From positions 62,001-126,000 of the IMG/VR virus record IMGVR_UViG_3300035698_017437: a DNA stretch of 64,000 nucleotides; one strand, 5' to 3'. The notes beneath the pieces are model-generated. The model was given only the letters and a program-made list of their open reading frames with translations, did no database searches and was not told the DNA's origin. The stretch is from a virus. Of this stretch, positions 16,224 to 61,744 are shown piece by piece (the first letter of the stretch is position 1; every line of letters begins with the position of its first letter). The position numbers were made by a program, and so were the translations under genes.

Positions 16224-16297
16224 GCCGGTATAGCTAAGTGGTTAAGCGCAAGATTTGTATTCTTGAAACGGGGGTTCGATTCCCTCTACCGGCTCCA
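16224..16297 (+). tRNA. tRNA-Thr (TGT)
   Basis: Seven-base acceptor stem, loop TTTGTAT with anticodon TGT on a five-pair stem CAAGA/TCTTG, T-arm with TTCGATT, encoded CCA. Reads ACA. The 44 bases after it hold a fragment (GGAGCTCAAATCC...GGCTCCA) that may be the 3' remnant of another tRNA. Confidence 0.92.
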
Positions 16298-16341
16298 ATA
16301 ACGAGGAGCTCAAATCCGAACGGAGGCTCCAAAACAATTAT

Positions 16342-16417
16342 AGATCTGTAACTCAGTGGATAGAGTAGATGCCTTCTAAGCATTTTGTCGGGAGTTCAAA
16401 TCTCTCCAGGTCTACCA
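16342..16417 (+). tRNA. tRNA-Arg (TCT)
   Basis: Acce stem AGATCTG/CAGGTCT, anticodon loop CTTCTAA with TCT, T-loop TTCAAAT, encoded CCA. Reads AGA, a common codon in this AT-rich genome. Confidence 0.9.
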
Positions 16418-16426
16418 AGGATTAGT

Positions 16427-16723
16427 ATGAGTAAATGTTTATTCTATATGGCTCGACCCATTTCAGGAGTAGATGGAATACGGATGCTTTCCCATCTAAA
16501 AATTCTTGAAACAACAGCAGATGAAGTTTTCCATTTATCAAACACAAAGACGAACAAAGGCAAGGAAGTAATTGAATTCCACAGTGGATTAAGAATATCA
16601 AAATCAATCAACTATTTTGGTGAAGTATATACCAACGAGTTGAAACATCTTGATTCTTGGATGAATGTTTATAATGCTCTTGATGTATCTCCTTTAAAGA
16701 TATATATGATAAACTATTCATAA
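16427..16723 (+). CDS. unknown protein, first of a coupled pair
   Basis: 98 residues starting MSKCLFYMARPISGVDG just behind tRNA-Arg. The YMARPISGV opening faintly resembles phage glycosyltransferase-like proteins that start with (V/M)ARPIYGG, but the rest does not confirm it. Overlaps the next gene by one base; the two could be halves of an ancestral longer protein. Confidence 0.5.
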   Translation: MSKCLFYMARPISGVDGIRMLSHLKILETTADEVFHLSNTKTNKGKEVIEFHSGLRISKSINYFGEVYTNELKHLDSWMNVYNALDVSPLKIYMINYS

Positions 16724-17496
16724 TGGGAGGTATATGTTTTAGAAGTTCAGGATTTTGTAGAGGTGGTAAACGAGAAGATTCATTTCCTAATGATAAAGGT
16801 CAAATAAAATTTATCAGTCAAGGAACTCATTTTGTAAATATTCTCGCAATATTGAAAGCCCATAGGGAGTATGGAATTCCACTTCACGAATACTCTTATG
16901 ATACTGATGAGTTGCCTTGTTCATCTTTTCATCCTGATGTGTCACCAAAATTGAATTATTATCTATATTATGGACATTCAATAAAAGATTACGATATATC
17001 CCGTTTGGATTGTCACCAATATTATATGAAGAATAATAGGAAGAATACTATATTTGATGATATTCCTGAAAAGGTTCATGATCTAACTAGTGGATATACA
17101 AACATAAACGATACAAGAAATAGATATTCAGTTGAGCTAGATGATTTAGCATCAAATTGTAAAACGTCTAATATATACATAAGAGATAAAATTCAAGGAA
17201 TAGATACATTTCTTGATAAAGATCAATATAATCGGATGATTTCAGAATCCAGGTTTACTTTTATATTTCCTGCCTATGATCTTCATGTAATATCTATTGA
17301 TAGGATGCTTGGAGCTATACACCGAGACTGTCTACCTCTATTCCATAGTGAATGTGTCTTGACGGATGTAGAGGAATCGTTCGGTGTTGATCTAAAATAC
17401 TTAGTTAGAACAAAACTCTTATCTGAAGAGGACCGGTTAAGATGGTTGAATATATTGAAAGAAAAGTTTACTGCCTTTCGAATAGGATTCAAATAA
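16723..17496 (+). CDS. unknown protein, second of a coupled pair
   Basis: 257 residues. Near the C-terminus SRFTFIFPAYDLHVISIDRMLGAI and DCLPLFHSECVL look like the end of a Rossmann-type nucleotide-sugar transferase (acceptor His, small hydrophobics), which would go with the weak glycosyltransferase hint in the gene before it. That remains speculative. No signal peptide or membrane span. Confidence 0.5.
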   Translation: MGGICFRSSGFCRGGKREDSFPNDKGQIKFISQGTHFVNILAILKAHREYGIPLHEYSYDTDELPCSSFHPDVSPKLNYYLYYGHSIKDYDISRLDCHQYYMKNNRKNTIFDDIPEKVHDLTSGYTNINDTRNRYSVELDDLASNCKTSNIYIRDKIQGIDTFLDKDQYNRMISESRFTFIFPAYDLHVISIDRMLGAIHRDCLPLFHSECVLTDVEESFGVDLKYLVRTKLLSEEDRLRWLNILKEKFTAFRIGFK

Positions 17497-17510
17497 GGTG
17501 TATTTATATG

Positions 17511-17539
17511 TTGACAAGTAATATCCAATATGTTATAAT
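17511..17539 (+). promoter_or_regulatory. sigma70 promoter for tRNA genes, second family
   Basis: TTGACA 17511-17516, 17-bp spacer, extended -10 TATAAT 17534-17539; transcription would begin about 10 bases before tRNA-Gln. Confidence 0.88.
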
Positions 17540-17555
17540 AGAGTATACAGAATGA

Positions 17556-17627
17556 AGACCCGTAGTTCAGCGGTAGAACCTCACCCTTTGAAGGTGATTG
17601 TCGGATGTTCAAATCATCCCGGGTCTG
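17556..17627 (+). tRNA. tRNA-Gln (TTG)
   Basis: Acceptor AGACCCG/CGGGTCT, anticodon loop CTTTGAA with TTG on TCACC/GGTGA, T-loop TTCAAAT. Discriminator G; CCA is not encoded, so the phage or host CCA enzyme must add it. Confidence 0.9.
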
Positions 17628-17636
17628 AATATAATC

Positions 17637-17710
17637 GGGAGATTAGCTCAGTTGGTTAGAGCCGTGTTCTCATAAATCACAGGTCACTGGTTCAAATCCA
17701 GTATCTCCCA
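17637..17710 (+). tRNA. tRNA with CAT anticodon (Met or Ile2)
   Basis: Acceptor GGGAGAT/ATCTCCC, loop CTCATAA with CAT, T-loop TTCAAAT, no encoded CCA. The anticodon stem GTGTT/ATCAC has one T-T mismatch. With CAT it may be an elongator Met or, if C34 is modified by TilS, an isoleucine tRNA for ATA codons. Confidence 0.85.
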
Positions 17711-17742
17711 AAATACTTTAGTTTCTTCATCAAAGGAATATT

Positions 17743-17934
17743 ATGAAAGCTTATGGAGTTCCTAGAATAAAAGACGCCGAATGTCCTGATAAAGCGGATA
17801 TCAAACGTTTCGGGTATTCATCAACTGATCGTTGTTCCAGAAAAGATAGAGGCAAAAATACATCAAGACGGATATGGAAGAAAAAGTTCAGAGCAGATCA
17901 AAAGAAATTATGTAATTACAAAGAATTCCTTTAG
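17743..17934 (+). CDS. small basic protein
   Basis: 63 residues, Lys/Arg rich with SRRIWKKKFRADQKK near the C-terminus. Embedded among tRNA genes and preceded by AAGGA. Looks like other short basic phage proteins that probably bind nucleic acid. Confidence 0.5.
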   Translation: MKAYGVPRIKDAECPDKADIKRFGYSSTDRCSRKDRGKNTSRRIWKKKFRADQKKLCNYKEFL

Positions 17935-17964
17935 GAATCACAATTTAACCTAAAAAGGAACCAA

Positions 17965-18159
17965 ATGTTACATAAAATGAAAGTTGTACTTGATAACACA
18001 TCTAGTCCAAAAGTTTATAAAAGAACTAGATGGACACATTATGAGGGATATAAATTTATTTGTTGTATGTGTAAACCTCATAGAGGATGTAACAGAAAAA
18101 GAAATCCAAGCCTATCTTGGAAAGATCAAAGCAAAAAAAGAAATTCATGGGAGAAATAG
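17965..18159 (+). CDS. small basic Cys-containing protein
   Basis: 64 residues with CCMCKPHRGCNRKRN, a possible zinc knuckle, and a basic C-terminus WKDQSKKRNSWE. This frame is preferred to an overlapping one (17984-18166) because of the ribosome site AAAAGGA and the coherent Cys/basic pattern. Possible nucleic-acid binder. Confidence 0.5.
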   Translation: MLHKMKVVLDNTSSPKVYKRTRWTHYEGYKFICCMCKPHRGCNRKRNPSLSWKDQSKKRNSWEK

Positions 18160-18162
18160 AAT

Positions 18163-19254
18163 ATGAGAAAGTTAGCAACAATCAGAAGAATTGAAAATAT
18201 CCTGCCTATTCAAGGAGCTGATAGGATTGAAGTAGCTTATATTGATGGTTGGGAATGTGTTATCAAAAAAGATCAATTCATAGTAGGTGATTTCTGTGTT
18301 TATTTTGAAATTGATTCTATGCTTGATAAAGATAATCCCGTTTTTGAATTTATGGCTCAACGAAAGTTTAGAGTAAGAACTATCAAACTGAGAAAACAGA
18401 TTTCTCAGGGACTTGCTCTTGCTCTTGAGGATTTCCCTGAATTGAAAAATCCTATAGTTGGTGATGATGTAACCTCTCTACTGAAGATCACTAAACATGA
18501 TCCTCATGCACAAAGAGAGCGAAATCAACAGGTTAGCACTAGGAAGAAGCCTCCATTGCGCTGGATGCTCCGATTTGGTGTAGGACGATATCTACATCAA
18601 AAGATTTGGAACAGAGCTTCAGGATCATGGCCCGGACTTTTTCCCAAAACCGATGAAGAAAGAATTCAAAATCTTTCTCTATATAATCTTGAAAGTATTC
18701 TCAAAGATGAAGTGGTTGTTACAGAGAAATTGGACGGACAATCAGTATCAATTTTCTATGATAGAAAAGCAAAAACGGGATTCTTCAAACGAGGAGTTTT
18801 TGGAGTATGCTCTAGGAATATTTGGTATAAAAACCAAGCAAATAATAATTGGTGGAATATAGCAATCAAAGAAAACCTCCAATTGACTCTTCCTGAATAT
18901 TGTAATCAAGAAAAGATGTCGCTTGTCATTCAAGGAGAAATAGTAGGAGAGGGAATTCAAAAGAATAGATATAATCTGAAAGGACAACATCTATATGTTT
19001 TTTCTGTATATGATATTGAAAATCAGAAATATATTGATCCAAAAGATGAGACTTTATCTTTGGGTTTGACAAGAGTTCCAGATCTAGGAACTTGCGTCTT
19101 AGAACCAAATAAAAAACTTATCCTTGAATTCGCTGAAGGTAAATCTGTAGTTGGATCTAAATCTCTTAGAGAAGGAATTGTTATTCGTTCTGAGAAAGAT
19201 CAATCCAAATCATTCAAAGCTATTTCTAATAAATGGCTTCTCAAAAATGAATAA
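18163..19254 (+). CDS. RNA ligase, Rnl5 (DraRnl-like) type
   Basis: 363 residues. N-terminal OB-like domain (about 1-125: IRRIENILPIQGADRIEVAYI...) precedes the nucleotidyltransferase domain, the order seen in Deinococcus Rnl. Motif I is EKLDGQS (Lys adenylated), with later motifs VIQGEIVGEGIQ (motif III region) and REGIVIRS (motif IV) and a C-terminal Lys motif (SFKAISNKWL). Seals 3'-OH/5'-phosphate RNA nicks through an AMP intermediate. It lies inside the tRNA bank and, with RtcB and the CCA enzyme, points to tRNA repair after host anticodon-nuclease cleavage. Confidence 0.88.
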   Translation: MRKLATIRRIENILPIQGADRIEVAYIDGWECVIKKDQFIVGDFCVYFEIDSMLDKDNPVFEFMAQRKFRVRTIKLRKQISQGLALALEDFPELKNPIVGDDVTSLLKITKHDPHAQRERNQQVSTRKKPPLRWMLRFGVGRYLHQKIWNRASGSWPGLFPKTDEERIQNLSLYNLESILKDEVVVTEKLDGQSVSIFYDRKAKTGFFKRGVFGVCSRNIWYKNQANNNWWNIAIKENLQLTLPEYCNQEKMSLVIQGEIVGEGIQKNRYNLKGQHLYVFSVYDIENQKYIDPKDETLSLGLTRVPDLGTCVLEPNKKLILEFAEGKSVVGSKSLREGIVIRSEKDQSKSFKAISNKWLLKNE

Positions 19255-19298
19255 TGTGTATACAAAATAAGAAACATATAATTCAAAAGGAGAGAGAT

Positions 19299-19508
19299 AT
19301 GAAATTTGTTATCGGAATGAACGGAGCACCAAAAGCACCAAAAACCAAAGAAGAAGAAAAGTCTATTGAAGAAAGTATGGGATTCTTCATTAAATTTATC
19401 GCTTGGAGTATTGTCGGTATTGCTCTTATTGGAGCATTTCTTGTTTGTGTAGCTGATGTACAAAGTGAAAGCAATGTAACAAAAACAGAAATAAGTGTTG
19501 ACAAATGA
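19299..19508 (+). CDS. small single-pass membrane protein
   Basis: 69 residues, start at 19299 with AGGAGAG ahead. Charged N-terminal third, one hydrophobic segment (about 31-53), short tail. Its 3' end contains the -35 of the next promoter. Function unknown. Confidence 0.6.
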   Translation: MKFVIGMNGAPKAPKTKEEEKSIEESMGFFIKFIAWSIVGIALIGAFLVCVADVQSESNVTKTEISVDK

Positions 19509-19526
19509 TTCTAAATATGTTATAAT
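19498..19526 (+). promoter_or_regulatory. promoter for structured RNA 1
   Basis: TTGACA 19498-19503, 17-bp spacer, extended -10 TATAAT 19521-19526. No protein start follows before the next promoter. Confidence 0.88.
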
Positions 19527-19532
19527 TACATA

Positions 19533-19610
19533 TACCAAATGAATAAGACTATAACAGTGAGTTAACCTTGTAAATGCCACCGTGCTCTAGGCACTGTTAT
19601 ATCTTGTTTA
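19533..19610 (+). ncRNA. candidate small structured RNA 1
   Basis: Between two strong promoters and without a reading frame. A 10-bp perfect helix, TATAACAGTG 19550-19559 with CACTGTTATA 19592-19601, is extended by AAGA/TCTT across a one-base bulge (19545-19605). The 32-base loop includes TGCC/GGCA. Not a tRNA. Function unknown. Confidence 0.55.
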
Positions 19611-19638
19611 TATATACAAAATAAAATGAATTTAGTTG

Positions 19639-19667
19639 TTGACAAGTGATTCTAAATATGTTATAAT
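19639..19667 (+). promoter_or_regulatory. promoter for structured RNA 2 and tRNA-Tyr
   Basis: TTGACA 19639-19644, 17-bp spacer, extended -10 TATAAT 19662-19667, almost the same 30-mer as the one at 19498. Confidence 0.88.
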
Positions 19668-19679
19668 TACATATATATC

Positions 19680-19799
19680 AAATTTTGTTGTGTTGTAAAA
19701 ACAAACCTCACACAGTATAAGCGGTGATAAGGTAGAGAATCGCCAAAGACATTATAGTCTTTGCTTGGAGAGAGCGATTTCCCACACAACAATAAACAT
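19680..19799 (+). ncRNA. candidate structured RNA 2
   Basis: Closing helix TTGTTGTGT 19685-19693 with ACACAACAA 19784-19792; inner helices AATCGC 19738-19743 with GCGATT 19774-19779, and directly stacked on it CAAAGAC 19744-19750 with GTCTTTG 19757-19763. It ends at the tRNA-Tyr 5' end, so RNase P would free its 3' end. No coding frame. Unknown class. Confidence 0.65.
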
Positions 19800-19882
19800 G
19801 GAGAGTTATACCGTAGGGGTAGCGGGATAGACTGTAAATCTATTGTCCTTTGGCTCGGGTGGTTCGACTCCACCACTCTCCA
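19800..19882 (+). tRNA. tRNA-Tyr (GTA)
   Basis: Acceptor GGAGAGT/ACTCTCC, loop CTGTAAA with GTA on ATAGA/TCTAT, long variable arm as expected for bacterial Tyr, T-arm GGTGG/CCACC. CCA not fully encoded. Confidence 0.92.
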
Positions 19883-19901
19883 CTTAAAATTAATTTAGTT
19901 G

Positions 19902-19930
19902 TTGACGAGAAATAGAAAATATGTTATGTT
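19902..19930 (+). promoter_or_regulatory. weak promoter for structured RNA 3
   Basis: TTGACG 19902-19907, 17-bp spacer, TATGTT 19925-19930. Upstream bases TTTAGTTG match the other RNA promoters, but the -10 is poor. Confidence 0.55.
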
Positions 19931-19937
19931 TCTTTAT

Positions 19938-20108
19938 AATAATATGCTTTCTGTGGTCGGGTAGTCCCGTATGAACGTGTAGGATTTATCAATAGAGTAA
20001 GATGATCATCCTCTATAATTTGATAGGCAGCCTTGCTTCAGAGGCAGATCTTGAATTCGCTAAGAAACGGTTCAATGATGATCTGCCCGCACACCGAAAG
20101 CATATTAG
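19938..20108 (+). ncRNA. candidate structured RNA 3 (about 170 nt)
   Basis: A 12-bp perfect closing helix joins 19940-19951 to 20096-20107. Inside: CGGG/CCCG hairpin at 19958-19969; ATAGAG 19992-19997 with CTCTAT 20011-20016, extended by ATCA/TGAT, whose loop is the self-complementary decamer GATGATCATC (20001-20010); GGCAGATC 20043-20050 with GATCTGCC 20080-20087, continued by TTGAA/TTCAA across a bulge. It is followed at once by tRNA-Glu. No known RNA family fits (not tmRNA, RNase P or 6S by motifs). Confidence 0.7.
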
Positions 20109-20111
20109 TAT

Positions 20112-20186
20112 GACCATATAATCCAACGGTTAGGATACGAGGTTTTCATCCTCGTAATCGGAGTTCAATTCTCCGTATGGTCACCA
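20112..20186 (+). tRNA. tRNA-Glu (TTC)
   Basis: Acceptor GACCATA/TATGGTC, loop TTTTCAT with TTC on CGAGG/CCTCG, T-arm CGGAG/CTCCG, encoded CCA. Reads GAA. Confidence 0.92.
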
Positions 20187-20197
20187 GATTGTAGATT

Positions 20198-20260
20198 AGA
20201 GATTTAGCTTATGTAAAGCGGGTATTTTGACAGATCTTGGTTCAACCCCAAGAATCTCCT
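20198..20260 (+). pseudogene. shortened tRNA-like element
   Basis: Acceptor AGAGATT/AATCTCC (first pair mismatched), small D-arm GCTT/AAGC, perfect T-arm CTTGG/CCAAG, but no standard anticodon stem; at 63 bases it is about ten short. Flanking TGTAGA/TCTACA could extend the acceptor helix. Decayed tRNA or a tRNA-like RNA. Confidence 0.5.
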
Positions 20261-20276
20261 TTCTACATACAATTAT

Positions 20277-20351
20277 TGCGGAGTAGAGTATTGGTAACTC
20301 TCTTGTCTCATAAGCAAGGATATGTTGGTTCAATTCCAACCTCCGCAACCA
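20277..20351 (+). tRNA. tRNA-Met (CAT)
   Basis: Acceptor TGCGGAG/CTCCGCA fully paired (so elongator type), loop CTCATAA on CTTGT/GCAAG, T-arm GTTGG/CCAAC, encoded CCA. Confidence 0.9.
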
Positions 20352-20361
20352 ATTTTTATAT

Positions 20362-20591
20362 CTCTCTATAGCTCAATAGGTAGAGCTTCTGAGGAATATT
20401 GAGTGTGAATTTTTGGGTTGCTCCTCAAATTCCTTCAATAATAATCAGAGCAAGTATTTCAATAATCCTACACTGGTCGGCAGATCATAACCTTGACCTC
20501 TTTTCTCTGGATAGCCATGGAACAAAGAGAAAAATTGTCATTGAAGTAGATTAGAGAAATCGTGAAGGTTCAAATCCTTCTAGAGAGACCA
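20362..20591 (+). tRNA. tRNA interrupted by about 155 nt
   Basis: The 5' end has acceptor CTCTCTA, TA and a perfect D-arm GCTC/GAGC; the 3' end has T-arm GAAGG/CCTTC, matching acceptor TAGAGAG, A73 and encoded CCA. Between them lie about 155 extra bases. TCTGA (5') and TTAGA (3') could form the anticodon stem, but I cannot assign the anticodon or splice sites. The insert has its own pairings (CTTCAAT/ATTGAAG, TTTTCTCT/AGAGAAAA) and lacks group I core motifs. The intact D-arm rules out tmRNA. Confidence 0.55.
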
Positions 20592-20606
20592 ATTAGTTTT
20601 AAATGC

Positions 20607-20694
20607 TCCCGCCTGACAGAGTGGTAATGTGCCTGGCTGTTAACCAGAGACCTAGAGTAATCTAGCGGTTGTTCGACCCAACCGGCGGGAGCCA
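20607..20694 (+). tRNA. tRNA-Asn (GTT) with long variable arm
   Basis: Acceptor TCCCGCC/GGCGGGA, discriminator G as in bacterial Asn, loop CTGTTAA with GTT, T-arm GGTTG/CAACC, encoded CCA. Unusually a variable-arm hairpin CTAGA-GTAA-TCTAG is present, a class II feature normally found in Leu, Ser and Tyr tRNAs. Confidence 0.8.
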
Positions 20695-20724
20695 ATTGTC
20701 CCACTAACTTTTAGAGAGAATAGA

Positions 20725-21009
20725 ATGACAAAACATTGGTGCGATGCTTGTGAAAGAGAGATAGTAGATAATAACTATAAGAATGTTGGAATACCTTGTC
20801 ATTTATATTCTATGAGTAGATCAGGAAATCTCCAGGGAGGGTATGTTGATAGGGAATTTCAACCAATATCAGGAAGAGATGATAATGTCCTTTTATGTCA
20901 TAAGTGTTTGAACAAAGGATGGTCGGCATTCTTGACTAAATTGGACTTAAATGGAGAGAAAAGGACAGAAACAGTTGAAACAGAGAGACTAAACGCCTTT
21001 ATTTATTAA
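20725..21009 (+). CDS. small zinc-binding protein
   Basis: 94 residues with CDAC near the start and CHKC about 50 residues later, a treble-clef-like or ribbon arrangement around a beta-rich middle. It lies between tRNA genes. Function unknown. Confidence 0.6.
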   Translation: MTKHWCDACEREIVDNNYKNVGIPCHLYSMSRSGNLQGGYVDREFQPISGRDDNVLLCHKCLNKGWSAFLTKLDLNGEKRTETVETERLNAFIY

Positions 21010-21019
21010 GAGTATATGT

Positions 21020-21095
21020 GCGCTTGTAGTCCAACGGCAGAGACAACAGGTTTAAGCCCTGTCCAGTGAAGGTTCAAATCCTTCCAGGCGTACCA
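21020..21095 (+). tRNA. tRNA-Leu (TAA), class I shape
   Basis: Acceptor GCGCTTG/CAGGCGT with two G-T pairs, anticodon loop TTTAAGC with TAA on ACAGG/CCTGT, five-base variable loop, T-arm GAAGG/CCTTC, A73, encoded CCA. Leu tRNAs usually have a long variable arm; this one does not. Confidence 0.8.
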
Positions 21096-21113
21096 AATAA
21101 TTATATTGACAAA

Positions 21114-21198
21114 GAAGATGCCGTCCGTTGGTGGACAGCTAGACTTGAAATCTGGTGGCGTGTTAGAAATAGCATGGGGTTCAACTCCCACATCTTCT
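21114..21198 (+). tRNA. tRNA-Ser (TGA)
   Basis: Acceptor GAAGATG/CATCTTC, loop CTTGAAA with TGA on CTAGA/TCTGG, long variable arm as expected. The T-arm is slightly irregular (TGGG/CCCA with an 8-base loop). CCA not encoded. Confidence 0.75.
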
Positions 21199-21259
21199 TC
21201 TTATAGAAAATAAATGTTGACAAATAAATGTTGACATATCATTTACAGGGAACTTTAAT

Positions 21260-21748
21260 ATGACGAATTTGCTTGAATTTATTCCTGAGGAACTTTTGGC
21301 TCCACATTCTATTGATGATAGATGGTATACTTCCAAATTTTATAATTTGAAGATTATGCCTTGTAGATCTATGGGTTGTAGGGGAGAAAAGATAGTTGAA
21401 TCAATATATTCCATTTTTGAAAGAGATGTATTGAAAGCATTGAATAAGGGACATGATAGACTAATTGATTCCAAGAAAGTTGAAATAAAAACCTCAATGG
21501 TAAGTAAAGGAAAGAAAGAGAAATATAGTTTCCTTCAAATCCGTCCTTCAGATGATTATGAAGTGATTATATTCTTTACTATCAATTATGATTCTTGTTC
21601 CTTTTATGAATTGACCAAAGAGGAAGTGCTGGAACGAATAGAGAATGGATTATTCAAACGTCAACATTTAGGAAAGAATGGAGATTCAGGCACCTTTTCA
21701 TATAATGGCACTATGGAGAATCTTGGTGCTAGGGAGATTGTTTTTTGA
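21260..21748 (+). CDS. PD-(D/E)XK restriction endonuclease-like protein
   Basis: 162 residues. LIDSKKVEIKTS gives the PD-(D/E)XK core with Asp70, Glu75 and Lys77; it continues as SFLQIRPSDDYEVIIFF, a pattern I associate with small type II restriction enzymes, followed by a QHLG element near residue 138. Its stop overlaps the TTG start of a DNA methyltransferase, the usual arrangement for a restriction-modification pair. Could cut unmodified competing DNA, or be a nicking/exclusion nuclease. Recognition site cannot be predicted. TTGACA elements upstream lack a clear -10. Confidence 0.65.
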   Translation: MTNLLEFIPEELLAPHSIDDRWYTSKFYNLKIMPCRSMGCRGEKIVESIYSIFERDVLKALNKGHDRLIDSKKVEIKTSMVSKGKKEKYSFLQIRPSDDYEVIIFFTINYDSCSFYELTKEEVLERIENGLFKRQHLGKNGDSGTFSYNGTMENLGAREIVF

Positions 21749-22827
21749 GCAAAAGACATACTTCACAAGATTTTCAACAAGCCAATGGACAATATTATTC
21801 CTCTAATACCGGAACTCTCTTATCTGGTTTTGAGAATTTCCTTGATAATATGAATATCATTGAGCCTTTTGCTGGAAATAAAGATCTAATAAACTGGACT
21901 ATTGAAAATTGTGATAATGTTTCTTTTTCAATGTATGATCTATATCCAACTGATGAGTCAATAACAAAAAATGATTCAATAAAATATCCTCCTTATAAGG
22001 ATGAAAATGGTATAATATCAAATCCCCCTTATCTTTCAAAGAACAAAAGTAAAGATAAGGAAGTTTTTGATCAATGGAATCAAAGTGATTTATATAAATG
22101 CCATCTTGCTTCAATAGTTGATAGTAAAATAGAAGGGGGTATTCTAATACTTCCATCAAATTTTATAAGTGAAAGCAGATCAAAAATAAGAGATTTATTT
22201 TTCTCAAAATATAAGATAGAGATGATCAAATATTTCTCTTATCCAGTTTTTGATGATGCAACGACAGGAATTATATCTTTCTCTTTCTCTTTATGGAAGG
22301 AAAAAAATGTTATGATTATTCCTTTTCATTTATATTCCAGCGAAAATGTAGTAAAGGTCAAAGAATATTCTTTGATTAGGAAATATGGCTGGTTAGTAGG
22401 AAAGAATTTCTTTGATTATATTTTAGAAGATGATTATCCTTTGAAATTAGAAATGTTGGAAGAACAACCGCAATCTAATTCAAATATTGTTATCGGTTTA
22501 TTGACAAATGGTAAATATTGTTTGGGAGCCCATTATAACGAAAAGGAAGCAATACGATCTAATGGGAAAGCATTTACAACATATCAAATATTCCTGAATA
22601 ATGACCTTTATTTATCTGAAGACGACCAAAAAGCTATTATAAAAAGATACAATAAGGTATTGAATGGTTTTATTGAAGAATATTCAGGATTATTCCTTGC
22701 CAATTATATGGGAGCAAACCAGAAAATCAAGAGTAGAAAATACTCAAGCCTTTTATTGAGTAGATGTATAAAGGAAATAAAAGGTATATACAAAGAAAAA
22801 AACGATTTATCTGAATTTATGACTTGA
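21745..22827 (+). CDS. N6-adenine DNA methyltransferase
   Basis: 360 residues, TTG start overlapping the stop of the nuclease gene (TTGA). Motif I is IIEPFAGNKDL (about 38-48) for SAM binding and motif IV is SNPPY (92-96), the adenine-N6 signature; ILILPSNFISESRSKIRDLF corresponds to later structural motifs of type II gamma-class enzymes. The C-terminal part is likely the target-recognition domain. As partner of the nuclease it would protect phage DNA at the same site. Confidence 0.8.
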   Translation: MSKRHTSQDFQQANGQYYSSNTGTLLSGFENFLDNMNIIEPFAGNKDLINWTIENCDNVSFSMYDLYPTDESITKNDSIKYPPYKDENGIISNPPYLSKNKSKDKEVFDQWNQSDLYKCHLASIVDSKIEGGILILPSNFISESRSKIRDLFFSKYKIEMIKYFSYPVFDDATTGIISFSFSLWKEKNVMIIPFHLYSSENVVKVKEYSLIRKYGWLVGKNFFDYILEDDYPLKLEMLEEQPQSNSNIVIGLLTNGKYCLGAHYNEKEAIRSNGKAFTTYQIFLNNDLYLSEDDQKAIIKRYNKVLNGFIEEYSGLFLANYMGANQKIKSRKYSSLLLSRCIKEIKGIYKEKNDLSEFMT

Positions 22828-22852
22828 CTTCTGATTCTATACATGGTATAAT
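22824..22852 (+). promoter_or_regulatory. early sigma70 promoter
   Basis: TTGACT 22824-22829 overlapping the methyltransferase stop, 17-bp spacer, -10 TATAAT 22847-22852. Flanks TTCTGATTCT and AGAATGAGAA are complementary except one position. Confidence 0.87.
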
Positions 22853-22899
22853 AGTATATACAGAATGAGAAAGATACATAATTCAAAGTGGAGAAACCC

Positions 22900-23271
22900 A
22901 TGAGACTTTCAAAAACAAGTGATTATATTGAGATTGATGAAAATGAAGATGTTGAAATTCTGTTCCTTTCAGATGAAGAATGGCAATCAAGTTTGAGTAA
23001 TAAATCTGCTTTAGCTTCTGTAAAGGATGAGGTTGCCTTTGCTGTAATGTCTGAGGAAATAAAATATTCAAGAATATTCGTCAATATAGATAAAGTTTAT
23101 GGAGTAGATTATGAGGTTGTTATTGCCCATGAATATTCACATATTCTTTTTCATGAAGTAGATGAAGAGAAAACAGATAGAAATTGTTTTCAATTTCTGG
23201 TAGAGAGTGAAATTGGTTGGTTGAAAAGTCAATGGGAAATCCGTCATGGACATAAATTTGAGGAGATTTAG
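22900..23271 (+). CDS. HExxH-type putative zinc metalloprotein
   Basis: 123 residues, start at 22900 after GGAGAAA. Contains AHEYSHILFHE, a standard HExxH zinc-peptidase motif, followed by DRNCFQFL, which may supply the third ligand. Small size suggests a minimal IrrE/SprT-like metalloprotease, perhaps cleaving a host regulator. A similar-sized HExxH protein occurs at 53747. Activity is inferred from the motif only. Confidence 0.6.
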   Translation: MRLSKTSDYIEIDENEDVEILFLSDEEWQSSLSNKSALASVKDEVAFAVMSEEIKYSRIFVNIDKVYGVDYEVVIAHEYSHILFHEVDEEKTDRNCFQFLVESEIGWLKSQWEIRHGHKFEEI

Positions 23272-23272
23272 A

Positions 23273-23476
23273 ATGTTTGAAAAAGAACCTAAAGGATCAA
23301 TGTTTTTCTATTCTGGAAACACAAACAGAAAAAATAATGAGAATTGGTTCCAGTTCTCAGGAATTTACCAATTACAGGAAAAAAGGAAAATTGAAGATGT
23401 TTTCTGTGACATAATCAAACTCAAAGAAGATGAACTGAAAGAACAAGTTGTCCTCACAAGCATGAATAAAATATAA
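23273..23476 (+). CDS. unknown small protein
   Basis: 67 residues, begins one base after the metalloprotein stop, ribosome site GAGGAG within the upstream gene. Short beta-hairpin followed by a charged helix. Function unknown. Confidence 0.5.
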   Translation: MFEKEPKGSMFFYSGNTNRKNNENWFQFSGIYQLQEKRKIEDVFCDIIKLKEDELKEQVVLTSMNKI

Positions 23477-23499
23477 TAATATCTTTGGAGGATATTAAG

Positions 23500-24141
23500 A
23501 TGAGTGAAATTTCAATTACAAGAGCTTTAGTGAAAATCAAAACCCTTCGGTCTAAGATAGAAAAAGGATCAAAGGCAATGGCAGTTTGTTCAGGATATCA
23601 AATTCAGGGACAACCAATTATTACAAGAGCTGGTCAAGTAAAAAATGCTGATATTCTTCAAACAGATATTAGTAAACGATGGCAAGCTGTGAATGATTTG
23701 ATGGATCTATATATCAAAATTCGAGAGGAGATCCAGAAATCTAATGCCGTTACTTTAGTTACAGTTGGAAAAAATAAAATGACCGTAGCAAAAGCCATTT
23801 TCATGAAAGAATTAATCTCGGATGAACGAGTTCCCCTTGCCTCTGTTGTTCTGAAAGATATCAATAACTCTAAACTACTGGTTCAGAAAAGGATAGAGGA
23901 TAATGATGAACGACTAACCGAACTTATCAAAAGCTCATTTCAAGGGAAATCAACTAAAATCTCTGATTCTGAATTTGAAGCAATTGCCAAACCTTTCAAT
24001 AAGAATAACAAAGTTGAATTCATTGATCCTTTTGGTATGGAAACAAAAATTGAAAAGGTTATTAATCAAAATGAAGAATTCCTTGAGGATATTGATGTTG
24101 TGTTAAGTGAATCTAACGCAAAAACAACGATTGAAATATAA
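23500..24141 (+). CDS. conserved helical protein, unknown
   Basis: 213 residues, start at 23500 with TTGGAGGA ahead. The opening ISITRALVKIKTLRSKIEKG recalls the DIP1984/septicolysin-like family of helical proteins, but this is a low-level impression. No enzymatic motif. It is the last coding gene before the second RNA cluster. Confidence 0.55.
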   Translation: MSEISITRALVKIKTLRSKIEKGSKAMAVCSGYQIQGQPIITRAGQVKNADILQTDISKRWQAVNDLMDLYIKIREEIQKSNAVTLVTVGKNKMTVAKAIFMKELISDERVPLASVVLKDINNSKLLVQKRIEDNDERLTELIKSSFQGKSTKISDSEFEAIAKPFNKNNKVEFIDPFGMETKIEKVINQNEEFLEDIDVVLSESNAKTTIEI

Positions 24142-24161
24142 GGGGAGTCATATCTAACAGA

Positions 24162-24169
24162 TATAAATA
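24162..24169 (+). promoter_or_regulatory. late promoter box TATAAATA before an RNA gene
   Basis: Exact late box 13-20 bases before the first paired base of the RNA candidate at 24175; no protein start follows. Confidence 0.55.
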
Positions 24170-24174
24170 AGTAC

Positions 24175-24484
24175 ATAAAGTATTATATTGAAACTGACTA
24201 AAAAGATATTCTCCTCAAATTGGAATAAGAGGTTAACATAAATTCCGCAACTAATTGCCTCAAACGCAATCTATTGATACAGCCTATAAAGCTGAACCGT
24301 TTCTGTAAAGTTTACAAAATCAAAAGATTAATGTTCAACAATTAGCGAGAAAAGTTTATACAATTACACCAAGAAAAATTAGAGAATAAAGATTGATTGA
24401 ATCTTGTGTATGGGTTTAGTAGGAAATTAGAATATCACGTCCTCAGTCAGTACCATCAAGCTGATAGAATACTTTACTTTTTAT
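24175..24484 (+). ncRNA. candidate structured RNA 4 (about 310 nt)
   Basis: The stretch 24142-24484 has no gene. Its ends pair: AAAGTATT 24177-24184 with AATACTTT 24468-24475, and ACTGACT 24193-24199 with AGTCAGT 24445-24451. Internal hairpins include CCTC/GAGG, ATTGC/GCAAT and AAGATT/AATCTT. It lies exactly between a late box and tRNA-Leu, so its 3' end would be made by RNase P. Unknown class. Confidence 0.55.
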
Positions 24485-24561
24485 GGCGCAATAGCCCAAT
24501 TGGCAGAGGCAATGGTTTTAGAAATCATGTGTTGTAGGTTCAACTCCTACTTGCGCTACCA
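24485..24561 (+). tRNA. tRNA-Leu (TAG), class I shape
   Basis: Acceptor GGCGCAA/TTGCGCT, loop TTTAGAA with TAG on ATGGT/ATCAT, variable loop of only five bases, T-arm GTAGG/CCTAC, A73, encoded CCA. Reads CUA. Like the TAA tRNA it lacks the long arm of normal Leu tRNAs. Confidence 0.82.
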
Positions 24562-24577
24562 TAAATTATAAATAAGA

Positions 24578-24652
24578 GCGTTCTTAGTATAAAGGTTATT
24601 ATTCTTGGCTTCCACCCAGGAGATGAGGTTTCGAGATCCTCAGAACGCTCCA
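24578..24652 (+). tRNA. tRNA-Gly (TCC)
   Basis: Acceptor GCGTTCT/AGAACGC, discriminator T, loop CTTCCAC with TCC on CTTGG/CCAGG, encoded CCA. Overall form resembles the tRNA-Gly of T4, including the TCCA end. T-arm has one mismatch. Confidence 0.88.
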
Positions 24653-24664
24653 ATAGTTTTATGT

Positions 24665-24730
24665 TCCTCAGGAGGCAGAGTCGATGACTTAATCATATTG
24701 TCGGAGATTCGAATCCTTCCTGAGGAACCA
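24665..24730 (+). pseudogene. shortened tRNA-like element
   Basis: Acceptor TCCTCAG/CTGAGGA, A73 and encoded CCA are perfect, but only 66 bases long: the D-arm is reduced to 11 bases and the T-stem has mismatches. A loop CTTAATC (TAA) can be drawn. Either decaying or a minimal D-arm-less tRNA. Confidence 0.5.
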
Positions 24731-24738
24731 AATTTTAT

Positions 24739-24814
24739 AGCGGGATAGAGCAGTTGGTAGCTTGCCAGCCTCATAAGCTGGAGGTCGGGAGTTCGAATCT
24801 CCCTCCCGCCACCA
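24739..24814 (+). tRNA. initiator-type tRNA-fMet (CAT)
   Basis: First acceptor pair is mismatched (A1-C72), and the GAGCAG...GGTAGCT D-arm is like bacterial initiator tRNA. Loop CTCATAA on CCAGC/GCTGG, T-arm GGGAG/CTCCC, A73, encoded CCA. Confidence 0.85.
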
Positions 24815-57339: not shown

Positions 57340-59754
57340 CTAAAAGTTTCCTTGAGTTACTGCTAATACTCCAATATCAAAATTTCTTGATTCTAAAGGA
57401 GTATTCACCTGAGAACTATTACTAACATTTGTACTAGATGAATTGTTATTATTAGTTATTATGGGTTGAATATTTTGAGATATTTCTTTAGATTCTTTTT
57501 TATCAAATTCTTTCTTTTTATTTTCTAAAGAAGTTCCAACTATTTCTCTTGCGGTCGCTAAGGGATTTTCATATTTCAAGGTAGAGTTTTCTCTTCCCTC
57601 AAAAGCTGTAGGTTTATGTGAAGAAATAGTTTCATATTCTAGTAAAGATCCCTTGCCTCTATTATCATTCAAAATATCCTTTTCGCTCAACTGGATAGGT
57701 TGTATATTTTTCTGTTTTTCCTTTTTACCTATTCCCAATTTATCCTTCAACCAACCTCTAGCTTCATCAAAAGGTATCATGTTTGTGACTGATTCCAACA
57801 CAGAACCCATCATTTCTTTCAAATCAATATCGGGAAGAAAAGTATCTCCTATCATATTCTTGACAAAATCATATATTCTTTGAAATGCTCCTGTAATAAA
57901 AGTCAATGGATTGTTTTCTAAAATTGTTGATAAAGCTTTATCTATATCTCCAGTGAATAATTCCTTTATCGCAATGAAAGGCGCTTTCACTAAATTGAAT
58001 ATACTTTCTATATTTTCACCCAACATAGAGAAGAATATGTCTATTGAACCCATTATTTTAGAAGCGAAACCTCCCTCAATTTGAGTACCGAATAGTCCAA
58101 GAATTTTATCTACTACCCAACCGAATAATTTTATAGGCAATTCAAAGAATCCTTTCAATACTTCTGATAATCCTGCCATTGTTTTTTCTAATATAGATCC
58201 CTCTGATGCTTGGTATCCTTTAACAAAATCATAAATTCCCATAAGAATAGATATTGGCCATCCGAGACCTTTTAGAGCAAACTTGAAAGCTCCTGCGAAT
58301 TTGCCAATAAGGGGAATAGCTTTCTTCATCATTTCACCAATTCCTTTCATATTACCAAAGAATTTGATTATAGGTTCAAAAAACTTTCCAACTTTTCCAG
58401 AAACATATAAGAAACCCTCTTTTACTTTATCAAAAAAGGCAAACATCGGAGCAAAAGATTTTTGGATAAGTTTTACTCTATTCCCGATGAATTTACCAAA
58501 TGATATAAGAACTTCAAAAGGTTTGATGAAATATGCTATAGCACTACCAATTACTGCTCCTAAAGTTATTGCCGCTCCTGTTAGGACTGCTCCTATGTTT
58601 ATAAAGATATTATCCCAGAAACTTGATTCAACCTCTGGAGCTTCTAAATTCAAATCTAAATTTTCTAGAGCTTCTAGTTGTTTTTCTTGAAATTGAATTT
58701 GTTCCCTATATTTCTCTTCTTGAGAAACTTTATCCATTTTATCGGATACTGTTTGCTGTTCAAGACTAGATAATATATTGGAAAGTATTTCATTGCCCGA
58801 ATTATCTGATTCATCTTCAGGACCACTCTCTAGAGCTTTTATGATATCTGTACGAAGAATATCCAAACCTTCCTCTGTAGCCATTGCTTGAAAGAGTTTC
58901 AATGCTTCTGGATCTGTTTCATTTTGTATAGCAGAATCAATTTCTTTTTTCACCTCTTCCATGGCAACATCTAAGGATCCATCTTTATTTCCTGCTATAT
59001 CTTCCAAAGCATCTTTTGCTTGTTTTTCTGCTTCTTGTTTTATTTCTTTATTTGCTTCCTCTAAGGCTTTTTGAGATTCTGTTACTTTTTCTAATTGTTC
59101 ATTATATGATGCCAAGGCAGCTGATTCAGTTTCTTCTTTTGATTTATTTTTTTCTTCTTTACGACTTCTCATGAAATCGCCTATAGCTCCACCAGCAAAC
59201 ATAGCAAGAGGAGAATCACCTAGAACACCAGCTAATATGCCGCCAATATCTGGCATATTATTACTAACAGCACTCCCAATCATTTTAGCGTTTGATAATC
59301 TATTTGATTTATCAAAATTTATTTGTTCTTTTACTAAGGATTCCTGTCTTTTCAAGGATTGTAATTGATCTGAGGTAAGATCTCCTGAATCATCAATTGA
59401 ATCTATAACTTCTGACAATTTCTTTTCTTGAATTTTGAGAGAGAATCTTGAAGATGTGTCGCTTACTTCTTTGAAAACTGAACCAATCCTTTCAGATAAT
59501 CTATCAAAGGTTTTGCTCTGAAGAGATTCATCACCTCTCTCGGCATCTAATCCAGTTTTAGAAGTAAAATTTTGTTGTTGATTATTATTGTTTGTCTTTT
59601 TCCAAGATTTCAGGAATGAGGATAGACCACCATCTTTCATAGAATCAACAGATTTATTATAAACTCGTTCTACGTTTCTCCTATCATTTTCTACATTGGC
59701 CTCTAAACGGGCTAATCTAATATCATTCATTCTTGATTTATTTTCTTGGTCCAT
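57340..59754 (-). CDS. tail tape-measure / hub protein (gp29-like)
   Basis: About 804 residues, last gene of the reverse operon. N-terminal and middle regions are long charged helices (coiled coil, about 1-350), followed by hydrophobic stretches (about 390-425 and 490-570: AVLTGAAITLGAVIGSAIAYFI) and amphipathic helices, typical of tape measures that fill the tail tube and later insert into the host membrane. It directly follows the gp26/frameshift-partner pair, which in phages acts as tape-measure chaperone. Start at 59754 preferred: AGGA is six bases ahead. No obvious lysozyme domain. Confidence 0.72.
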   Translation of the reverse strand: MDQENKSRMNDIRLARLEANVENDRRNVERVYNKSVDSMKDGGLSSFLKSWKKTNNNNQQQNFTSKTGLDAERGDESLQSKTFDRLSERIGSVFKEVSDTSSRFSLKIQEKKLSEVIDSIDDSGDLTSDQLQSLKRQESLVKEQINFDKSNRLSNAKMIGSAVSNNMPDIGGILAGVLGDSPLAMFAGGAIGDFMRSRKEEKNKSKEETESAALASYNEQLEKVTESQKALEEANKEIKQEAEKQAKDALEDIAGNKDGSLDVAMEEVKKEIDSAIQNETDPEALKLFQAMATEEGLDILRTDIIKALESGPEDESDNSGNEILSNILSSLEQQTVSDKMDKVSQEEKYREQIQFQEKQLEALENLDLNLEAPEVESSFWDNIFINIGAVLTGAAITLGAVIGSAIAYFIKPFEVLISFGKFIGNRVKLIQKSFAPMFAFFDKVKEGFLYVSGKVGKFFEPIIKFFGNMKGIGEMMKKAIPLIGKFAGAFKFALKGLGWPISILMGIYDFVKGYQASEGSILEKTMAGLSEVLKGFFELPIKLFGWVVDKILGLFGTQIEGGFASKIMGSIDIFFSMLGENIESIFNLVKAPFIAIKELFTGDIDKALSTILENNPLTFITGAFQRIYDFVKNMIGDTFLPDIDLKEMMGSVLESVTNMIPFDEARGWLKDKLGIGKKEKQKNIQPIQLSEKDILNDNRGKGSLLEYETISSHKPTAFEGRENSTLKYENPLATAREIVGTSLENKKKEFDKKESKEISQNIQPIITNNNNSSSTNVSNSSQVNTPLESRNFDIGVLAVTQGNF

Positions 59755-59794
59755 CTTCATTCCTTATTATATTTTGTAATGCTCTTTCACATCT

Positions 59795-59950
59795 TCACTT
59801 ATCTTTATTGATTTTCTGGACAAGCAAAGCTATGTAAATCTCCCTTTCCCACGGCATCATCAACTCTATTTCTGTCAAAGACCAATTAAAGTTTTCCATC
59901 AAACTAAAATTGGTCTTATAAACAGCTAAAAGAGAACTGTGGGAGGTCAT
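59795..59950 (-). CDS. -1 frameshift partner of gp26 (tail assembly chaperone extension)
   Basis: 51 codons from an ATG overlapping the gp26 stop (TAATG). LTEIELMMPWEREIYIALLVQKIN is a pattern I associate with the second open frame of tail assembly chaperones in front of tape-measure genes. The frame lies -1 relative to gp26 and is entered at a perfect slippery heptamer T TTT TTC. It can thus be made as a gp26 extension and possibly as a free short protein. Confidence 0.7.
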   Translation of the reverse strand: MTSHSSLLAVYKTNFSLMENFNWSLTEIELMMPWEREIYIALLVQKINKDK

Positions 59951-60651
59951 TAGGCGAAAAAATCGCTAAGACCCTTAAACTCATGTTTGACTATAAATCC
60001 ACAATGAGAACATTTTTCGTTGATATTATAGGACATTCTTGGCATTGTATCAAAAAACTCTTTTACTTTTGAAAATTGTCCTGAAGTCATAGAATCCAAA
60101 AACTCTCCTATTTCTTCTTTTGATAAATCTGAAGAATTGTATATAACATCACCAATCATAACAGAATCAACCATTGATACTACAAGAGCAAACATTTTTT
60201 CTGGATCTTCAGAATCTTCCATGACACTTTCAAGAGTAGGATAATTCATAGTAATAATAACATCCTCAGATATAGCAATATTCTTTGAATGTTTTTTATC
60301 TTTCTTGATCTTCACTTTCTCAAGGTCAATCTCAATCTCAATTTTCTTTTTACATTCAGGACATGAAAAATTGATTTCTACAACTTCGCCTACAGAAGCT
60401 CCCCTTAATTTTATAAATAAAAACTCAATATCAAATGTAGCTAACTTTTCAACGTCTAATACTTCAAACGAGCAAGCAAAAATAATATCTTTCATTGCTA
60501 AAACTACATCTTCGGGATTTTTAGATTCTTTAGCTGCCAGAAGAATTTTTTCTTCTTTGACTAAAAAGGGCCTCATTTTAACTTTTTTATTTGTTGATGG
60601 TACAGTAACCGTAAATGATGGCACAGCTAACTTGGGTAGAACTGATTCCAT
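59950..60651 (-). CDS. 26: gp26-like baseplate hub / tail assembly protein
   Basis: 233 residues of the T4_baseplate (gp26) family. N-terminal beta-hairpin PSFTVTVPSTNKKVKMRPFLVKEEKILLAAKES, then FSCPECKKKIEIEIDL and C-terminal KCSHCGFIVKHEFKGLSDFF: two CxxC pairs that likely hold a zinc. Needed for hub assembly; its position just before the tape measure and the slippery sequence at its end suit a tape-measure chaperone. Ribosome site GAGAGG. Confidence 0.85.
   Translation of the reverse strand: MESVLPKLAVPSFTVTVPSTNKKVKMRPFLVKEEKILLAAKESKNPEDVVLAMKDIIFACSFEVLDVEKLATFDIEFLFIKLRGASVGEVVEINFSCPECKKKIEIEIDLEKVKIKKDKKHSKNIAISEDVIITMNYPTLESVMEDSEDPEKMFALVVSMVDSVMIGDVIYNSSDLSKEEIGEFLDSMTSGQFSKVKEFFDTMPRMSYNINEKCSHCGFIVKHEFKGLSDFFA
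59956..59962 (-). promoter_or_regulatory. -1 ribosomal frameshift site T TTT TTC
   Basis: Canonical X XXY YYZ heptamer in the gp26 frame (GAT TTT TTC GCC TAA), two codons before the stop. A 10-bp hairpin (59878-59887 with 59908-59917) lies about 40 bases downstream, farther than usual for a stimulator. Confidence 0.78.
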
Positions 60652-60665
60652 AATAATCCTCTCTT

Positions 60666-61163
60666 TTATTCTTTGTGATGGAAAAACATGGAAACTGTTA
60701 CTTGAGCTATTTCCTCTGCCTCTCCGCTATATGATACTGGACTTACATTCATTGGAAAACAATCAACTAATTTCACCCCTTTCCTTTCCTTTCCATTTTG
60801 ATCAAATCCTCTTATAATCATTTGACCTACTATTTCTTCATAATATCTAACATATCCATCATTTGTCAGAACAAAATCTAACCAATCCATGAAATATTGA
60901 TATTCTGTTAGATCTACCGAACAATGGAAGGTCATATTTACCTCACCATAATTCACTCCTGTGGGAATATTCAAATGATGTCCTGCTCCCTCAAAGAATG
61001 GAGCGGTATCAACAGAAGCAGAAGGAAATTCTACACTTGAACAATTCATTCTAGTATTAACATCCGCATTACCTAATGGTGATGAGATAATCACACCATA
61101 TTTATTAGGATTCAATAAACTTTTCTTTTTTATTATACTCATATACTGAGATATAGAATTCAT
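60666..61163 (-). CDS. tail-tube-fold protein (gp19/gp54-like)
   Basis: 165 residues from the ATG coupled to the upstream stop (61163). Pattern of the T4 gp19 tube fold: early CSSVEFPSASVDT, IPTGVNYGEVNMTFHCSVDLTEYQYFMDWLDFVL, GVKLVDCFPMNVSPVSYSGEAEEIAQVTVSMFF. In this operon position it is more likely the tube initiator (gp54-like) or a tube-like hub ring than the main tube protein. Starts with a hydrophilic 15-residue arm. Confidence 0.68.
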   Translation of the reverse strand: MNSISQYMSIIKKKSLLNPNKYGVIISSPLGNADVNTRMNCSSVEFPSASVDTAPFFEGAGHHLNIPTGVNYGEVNMTFHCSVDLTEYQYFMDWLDFVLTNDGYVRYYEEIVGQMIIRGFDQNGKERKGVKLVDCFPMNVSPVSYSGEAEEIAQVTVSMFFHHKE

Positions 61164-61744
61164 TAGTATTGACTCCTGGAGTCTCGCCACACTGCTTTAG
61201 ATGATGCTCCAACGAATTTAGCCGAAGGAAGTAATATAGCATGAGGCCATTTTTTAGGTCTTATAATATTTATTTTAGATTTTACATGATTACTCAAATA
61301 TCTATGTATACATGGACGAAAATATTTATATTTTGATGCCGCATTCAAAATCTGATAACTCAATTTCAATTTTGTAGTTTGATCAAATTTCACATTATTT
61401 ATTACTTCCATCAATCTACCCAAAAGGGTTGCTCTCAGAGCAGGTGGCAAATAATGTAAATTGATTCCCAACCAACCATCCTTATATATGTCAATAACTA
61501 TTATCAATGGATATCTATCATAATAGTCCAGTGTTTTTTTATGTTTAGGATCATAAACGAAGAAAGCCATTTTACCAATATCAATTTGTCCATTTCTTTG
61601 GCGAAGATCTGAAGTTGTTCCACCTGGTTTATCGCCTAAAGATTTGAATTCTTCTTTGAACCATTTCCTGGCATCCCTAATTTCCTCAGATTTATATTTT
61701 TTGCTTTCTACACCGAAAGAGGTTTTCTTATTTTTTTGTGCCAT
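61163..61744 (-). CDS. conserved T4-type virion-module protein, unassigned
   Basis: 193 residues. KMAFFVYDPKHKKTLDYYDRYPLIIVID...WLGINLHYLPPALRATLLGRLMEVINN is a sequence type I know from T4-type cyanophages next to head-completion and baseplate genes, where its function is not settled. Basic throughout. Overlaps gp4 upstream and the tube-fold gene downstream, so it is made with them. Confidence 0.65.
   Translation of the reverse strand: MAQKNKKTSFGVESKKYKSEEIRDARKWFKEEFKSLGDKPGGTTSDLRQRNGQIDIGKMAFFVYDPKHKKTLDYYDRYPLIIVIDIYKDGWLGINLHYLPPALRATLLGRLMEVINNVKFDQTTKLKLSYQILNAASKYKYFRPCIHRYLSNHVKSKINIIRPKKWPHAILLPSAKFVGASSKAVWRDSRSQY

Follow-up and report, generated by a model that had tools for sequence, protein, structure and literature searches.

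The gp26-type gene of this T4-like phage and the reading frame behind it very probably constitute a tail assembly chaperone locus, in which gp26 would be the short form and a -1 frameshift would produce a gp26-gp51 long form; the slippage, its frequency and the chaperone role of the products are inferred. Most ribosomes would stop at the gp26 stop codon and release the short chaperone (TAC-N), and a minority would slip back by one base at T TTT TTC, where the two Phe tRNAs would re-pair on TTT TTT. The slipped ribosomes would read 53 more codons, joining gp26 to a gp51-type domain (TAC-NC). If the analogy with lambda G/GT holds, the two forms may both cover the tape measure protein, with tail tube subunits recruited by the C-domain; in T4, an equivalent long form would come from gene 51, a separate gene in which the two parts are permanently fused. 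The locus is a new example of a published chaperone arrangement, not a new system, and it illustrates cleanly, and over a wide sample, the short/long chaperone rule of T4-like phages.

Gene layout of the locus

The window, i.e., the whole stretch of DNA analysed, covers 64,000 nt of an IMG/VR record that is 141,960 bases long. Profile searches placed the locus among T4-like phage genes for the tail and connector, including members of the tail tube, DNA end protector, head closure, tube cap and wedge families. The whole record contains one gp26 match and one gp51-like match. The gp26 product scored 216 bits against the PF12322 (T4_baseplate) profile, for which the cut-off is 24.5, so the domain can be assigned. 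The reading of the gene end as GAT TTT TTC GCC TAA with an in-phase X XXY YYZ heptamer, made in the initial annotation, is correct, and a -1 slip does enter an open frame holding a 51-codon ORF with its own ATG; the slip adds 53 residues. The frame is closed by a TAG at 59795-59797, giving a predicted fusion of 285 aa.

The long ORF proposed as the tape measure gene is indeed found directly downstream of the second frame. It has 806 codons, and its identity is probable mainly from its position and length, the tape measure profile phrog_934 giving a weak match (E=0.013). The layout recognised in the initial annotation as that of a frameshift tail assembly chaperone, namely a short ORF with an in-phase heptamer close to the 3' end and a -1 frame that stays open beyond it, is borne out (Table 1). 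An Rfam search of positions 59000-61000 yielded no match. Elsewhere in the window, thirteen tRNA genes are located within positions 16224-24814.

Table 1. Features of the predicted chaperone locus and its neighbours (positions in the window).
Feature	Position	Strand	Evidence or remark
gp26-type gene, putative short chaperone form (TAC-N), 233 aa	59950..60651	-	PF12322 E=6e-64; phrog_150 E=3e-67
Slippery heptamer T TTT TTC, its last six bases being the zero-frame codons TTT TTC; one codon 5' of the gp26 stop	59956..59962	-	
SD-like AAGGG, candidate 5' stimulator, 9 nt upstream of the heptamer	59972..59976	-	
-1 frame, predicted 53-residue gp51-type C-terminal extension (TAC-C)	59795..59962	-	phrog_634 match
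ATG of the 51-codon ORF (59795-59950), overlapping the gp26 stop as TAATG	59948..59950	-	stop TAA 59950-59952
Probable tape measure gene, 806 codons, immediately downstream	57340..59760	-	position and length
Tail tube / tube initiator gene, upstream of gp26	60666..61190	-	phrog_45 tail tube E=1e-26

Conservation of the slippery heptamer

Taken alone, the heptamer is weak evidence, since in-phase XXXYYYZ sequences occur at 72 of the 13,508 codons in the window ORFs of at least 120 aa, or about once per 190 codons. Among the 53 ORFs of this size, gp26 was the only one to combine a heptamer in the last five codons with at least 50 open codons in the -1 frame. Relatives were gathered by two IMG/VR scans and from named phages, which resulted in 92 deduplicated sequences, the window included; these sequences are not independent, and the codon test described below used one sequence per cluster at 50-70% identity. 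An alignment of relatives, suggested in the initial annotation as a check, showed that both the heptamer and the -1 phase are kept: NNT TTT TTN is present at the same place and in the same phase in 88 of the 92 sequences, in the forms TTTTTTC (70), TTTTTTT (13), TTTTTTA (4) and TTTTTTG (1). The gp26 stop is usually located one codon past the heptamer, and the gp51-like frame is always -1. The heptamer-bearing relatives span the Kyanoviridae, Rhizobium phages, Aeromonas and Vibrio phages and IMG/VR contigs, and further cases come from Ceceduovirus, Schizotequatrovirus and the phages of Methylophilales and Stenotrophomonas.

The heptamer might be a chance product of a Phe-Phe pair at the gene end, followed by a decaying gp51 remnant, as the pair is a conserved feature of the protein C-terminus and these genes use TTT more often than TTC for Phe (722 to 263). 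However, all 88 sites with the pair read NNT TTT TTN, whereas, outside this site, the same genes have the T TTT TTY form in only 7 of 96 Phe-Phe pairs, and the -1 frame is itself conserved as protein, with a mean column identity of 57% over 39 sequences; a chance origin has a practically negligible probability. Retention of the heptamer together with the -1 frame in 88 of the 92 relatives, against 7 of 96 pairs elsewhere, settles that its conservation is far beyond chance.

The predicted -1 frame product and its relation to T4 gp51

A profile search of the short frame against gp51 families, also suggested initially, revealed a match of the 51-aa ORF to the gp51 family PHROG 634 (E=8e-19). The predicted fusion likewise matches PHROG 634, and it matches phrog_150 over 3-278 of 282 with no break at the junction. 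A comparison between a profile of nine fusions and a profile of four T4-type gp51 proteins aligned 240 columns, extending across the junction (E=5.7e-20), and gp26 alone aligned with the N-terminal part of gp51 (E=6e-12). Since the predicted fusion aligns end to end with T4-type gp51, T4 gp51 looks like a permanently fused long chaperone with both halves in one frame. T4 gp26 is homologous to the short form described here, but has neither the heptamer nor the -1 extension, and gene 51 is a separate in-frame gene for the putative long form, its product aligning with the whole predicted fusion. The same absence of heptamer and extension characterises the Tevenvirinae gp26 genes examined, which belong to phages with a long separate gp51; other Straboviridae (Angelvirus, Ceceduovirus and Schizotequatrovirus) retain both.

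AlphaFold modelling of gp26 gave a confident model (pLDDT 93.8), and the C-terminal extension was predicted to consist mainly of three helices (pLDDT 81.6). Two viral models match both the gp26 model and the model of the extension, one of them being gp51 of Acinetobacter phage ZZ1. When the gp26 model was compared with the PDB, the HK97 chaperone (PDB code 2ob9) was one of the top-ranked entries, with non-significant E-values of 0.59 and 1.2, and the likeness to the fold of this solved chaperone is suggestive only. Sequence searches against solved structures gave chance matches only.

The homology to T4 gp51 that continues through the junction also speaks against a layout of two separate genes, where the 51-codon ORF would be translated by termination-reinitiation at TAATG, releasing a free gp51-like peptide. 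The ATG overlapping the gp26 stop, pointed out in the initial annotation, is present in the window, and a short gp51 is annotated as a gene of its own in public records, both in keeping with such a layout. This ATG is, however, not conserved in the relatives: in 45 of the 88, none of the first eight -1 frame codons is ATG, GTG or TTG, and yet these sequences keep both the frame and the heptamer. Nor is the window ATG preceded by a Shine-Dalgarno (SD) sequence, the duplex energy being -0.2 kcal/mol, compared to -7.5 kcal/mol for the strong SD before the gp26 ATG and -6.2 kcal/mol before the ATG at 59754 of the probable tape measure gene. With about half of the relatives devoid of a start codon and the window ATG devoid of an SD, independent translation of gp51 is a poor rival and highly unlikely. 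Taken over the whole group, the data agree best with frameshifting.

Candidate stimulatory elements around the heptamer

Most relatives carry GAGGG (encoding Glu-Gly) at a distance of nine bases 5' of the heptamer; the window has the weaker AAGGG, with a predicted anti-SD pairing energy of -5.0 kcal/mol. In the relatives, anti-SD pairing peaks at this point (mean -6.6 kcal/mol compared to an average of -1.3 kcal/mol over 150 bases) and exceeds that of synonymous resamplings (-6.65 vs. -5.22). The Glu codon at this site is GAG in 46 cases and GAA in 18, while the corresponding counts elsewhere are 572 and 1450; the bias towards GAG was retained with one sequence per cluster at 50-70% identity (17:9, 12:5 and 10:5; P from 6e-5 to 1e-3). 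Codon context accounts for part of the bias only, GAG and GAA preceding GGN 122 and 205 times, respectively, in the long ORFs. Relatives with Arg at this residue use CGA GG or AGA GG, which still yields GAGG.

The fixed spacing of the SD-like element is relevant to a further possibility, that access to the second frame comes from transcriptional slippage, with the polymerase slipping on the six-T run, and not from the ribosome. A T-run does sit at the site, and slippage on runs of about nine A or T is known in bacteria (PMC5009743); but 70 of the 88 relatives keep TTTTTTC, a run shorter than the known slippage runs, and the target of an SD-like element held at a fixed distance would be the ribosome and not the polymerase. 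Slippage by the polymerase appears extremely improbable.

Just 3' of the heptamer, the folding energy in the relatives falls below that of shuffled sequences, with mean z-scores of about -1.2 to -1.4 compared to about -0.2 in most other places. A single conserved downstream RNA structure was considered and rejected, as an ungapped pair scan indicated differing registers in each group and no common helix. In the window, no hairpin out of the ordinary is seen downstream: of three spans, two gave a z of about 0 or higher and the third gave -0.4.

The SD-like element and the downstream hairpins resemble the dnaX cassette, the -1 frameshift signal described in PMC3711429, and can be regarded as candidate stimulators. 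As in Escherichia coli dnaX, an SD-like element is located about 9-10 nt upstream of the heptamer in the relatives, and a hairpin lies downstream in many of them; the heptamer, the product and the purpose differ from those of dnaX, and the two stimulators of the window itself are weak. No description of the SD-like element and the downstream hairpin potential was found in the literature searched, which excluded the 2022 original discussed below. Perhaps, although we put this at slightly less than an even chance, the non-Tevenvirinae T4-like chaperone genes carry a dnaX-like cassette (GAGGG or AAGGG 9 nt upstream of T TTT TTN, with lineage-specific downstream hairpins) that would set the short/long ratio, while the Ackermannviridae would keep the -1 layout with a conserved ATT TTC AT(T/C) TAA replacing the heptamer and reach the frame otherwise. 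If functional, the upstream element makes the short/long ratio testable by simple mutations; this element and the Ackermannviridae exception are the parts deserving a second look.

Comparison with known chaperone systems

The abstract of the 2022 study by Vladimirov, Gautam and Davidson (Virology 566:9-15) is said to describe frameshifting as a conserved feature of several T4-like groups, with genes 26 and 51 being used in T4. The idea of gp26/gp51 chaperone frameshifting, including poly-T slippery sites in T4-like phages, is credited to this study in PMC10885494 and PMC12846349. The T4-like system described there has the same proteins, the same class of poly-T site and the same short/long logic as the locus considered here, which adds a new genome. 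The link between the gp26/gp51 system and the frameshift chaperones, put forward in the initial annotation, is supported by the alignment of the fusion along nearly all of T4-type gp51, but it is not new, having been made in 2022. Literature searches on gp51 and frameshifting found nothing beyond papers citing that study.

Lambda G/GT, P2 E/E' and HK97 gp13/14 comprise a short form and a -1 frameshift extension, as predicted here, and lie directly upstream of the tape measure gene, of which the 806-codon ORF of the window is the probable counterpart. The slippery heptamer of lambda G/GT differs from T TTT TTC, and the gp26 protein of the window is larger (233 aa) and has CxxC pairs. No sequence family match was found between the proteins of the locus and the lambda-type chaperones. 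The function of lambda G/GT is presented in PMC5009743.

Exceptions among the relatives and annotation of public records

The four exceptions to the heptamer among the 92 sequences are T4, Vibrio phage D531, an Ackermannviridae phage and Stenotrophomonas phage IME-SM1. In the Ackermannviridae, a gp51-like domain follows gp26 in the -1 frame without an XXXYYYZ heptamer; the sequence ATT TTC AT(T/C) TAA is conserved in several genera, and ATG, ATT or ATA overlaps the stop. The gp26 gene of Vibrio phage D531 ends TCA CTT TTC AAG TAATG and is followed by a gp51-like -1 frame, also without a classic heptamer. Phage IME-SM1 was considered as a natural in-frame fusion and rejected, since its slippery run has one T fewer than that of phage Marzo; in the other Stenotrophomonas records that matched, the span is one base longer than in IME-SM1, the sequence itself having been compared for Marzo. 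The shorter T-run of IME-SM1 is probably a sequencing error, with the annotated gp26 running on in the wrong frame.

Many public records of the locus annotate two genes or miss gp51. A study of 2010 (PMC3037559) reported cyanophage gp51 to be about 20% as long as gp51 of T4 and others, lacking the first 200 residues; it would look short because only the frameshifted tail was annotated. In the public records of phages S-CAM1, AS-zj and VH7D, the gp51-like frame is unannotated, probably because there is no good start codon near the gp26 stop.
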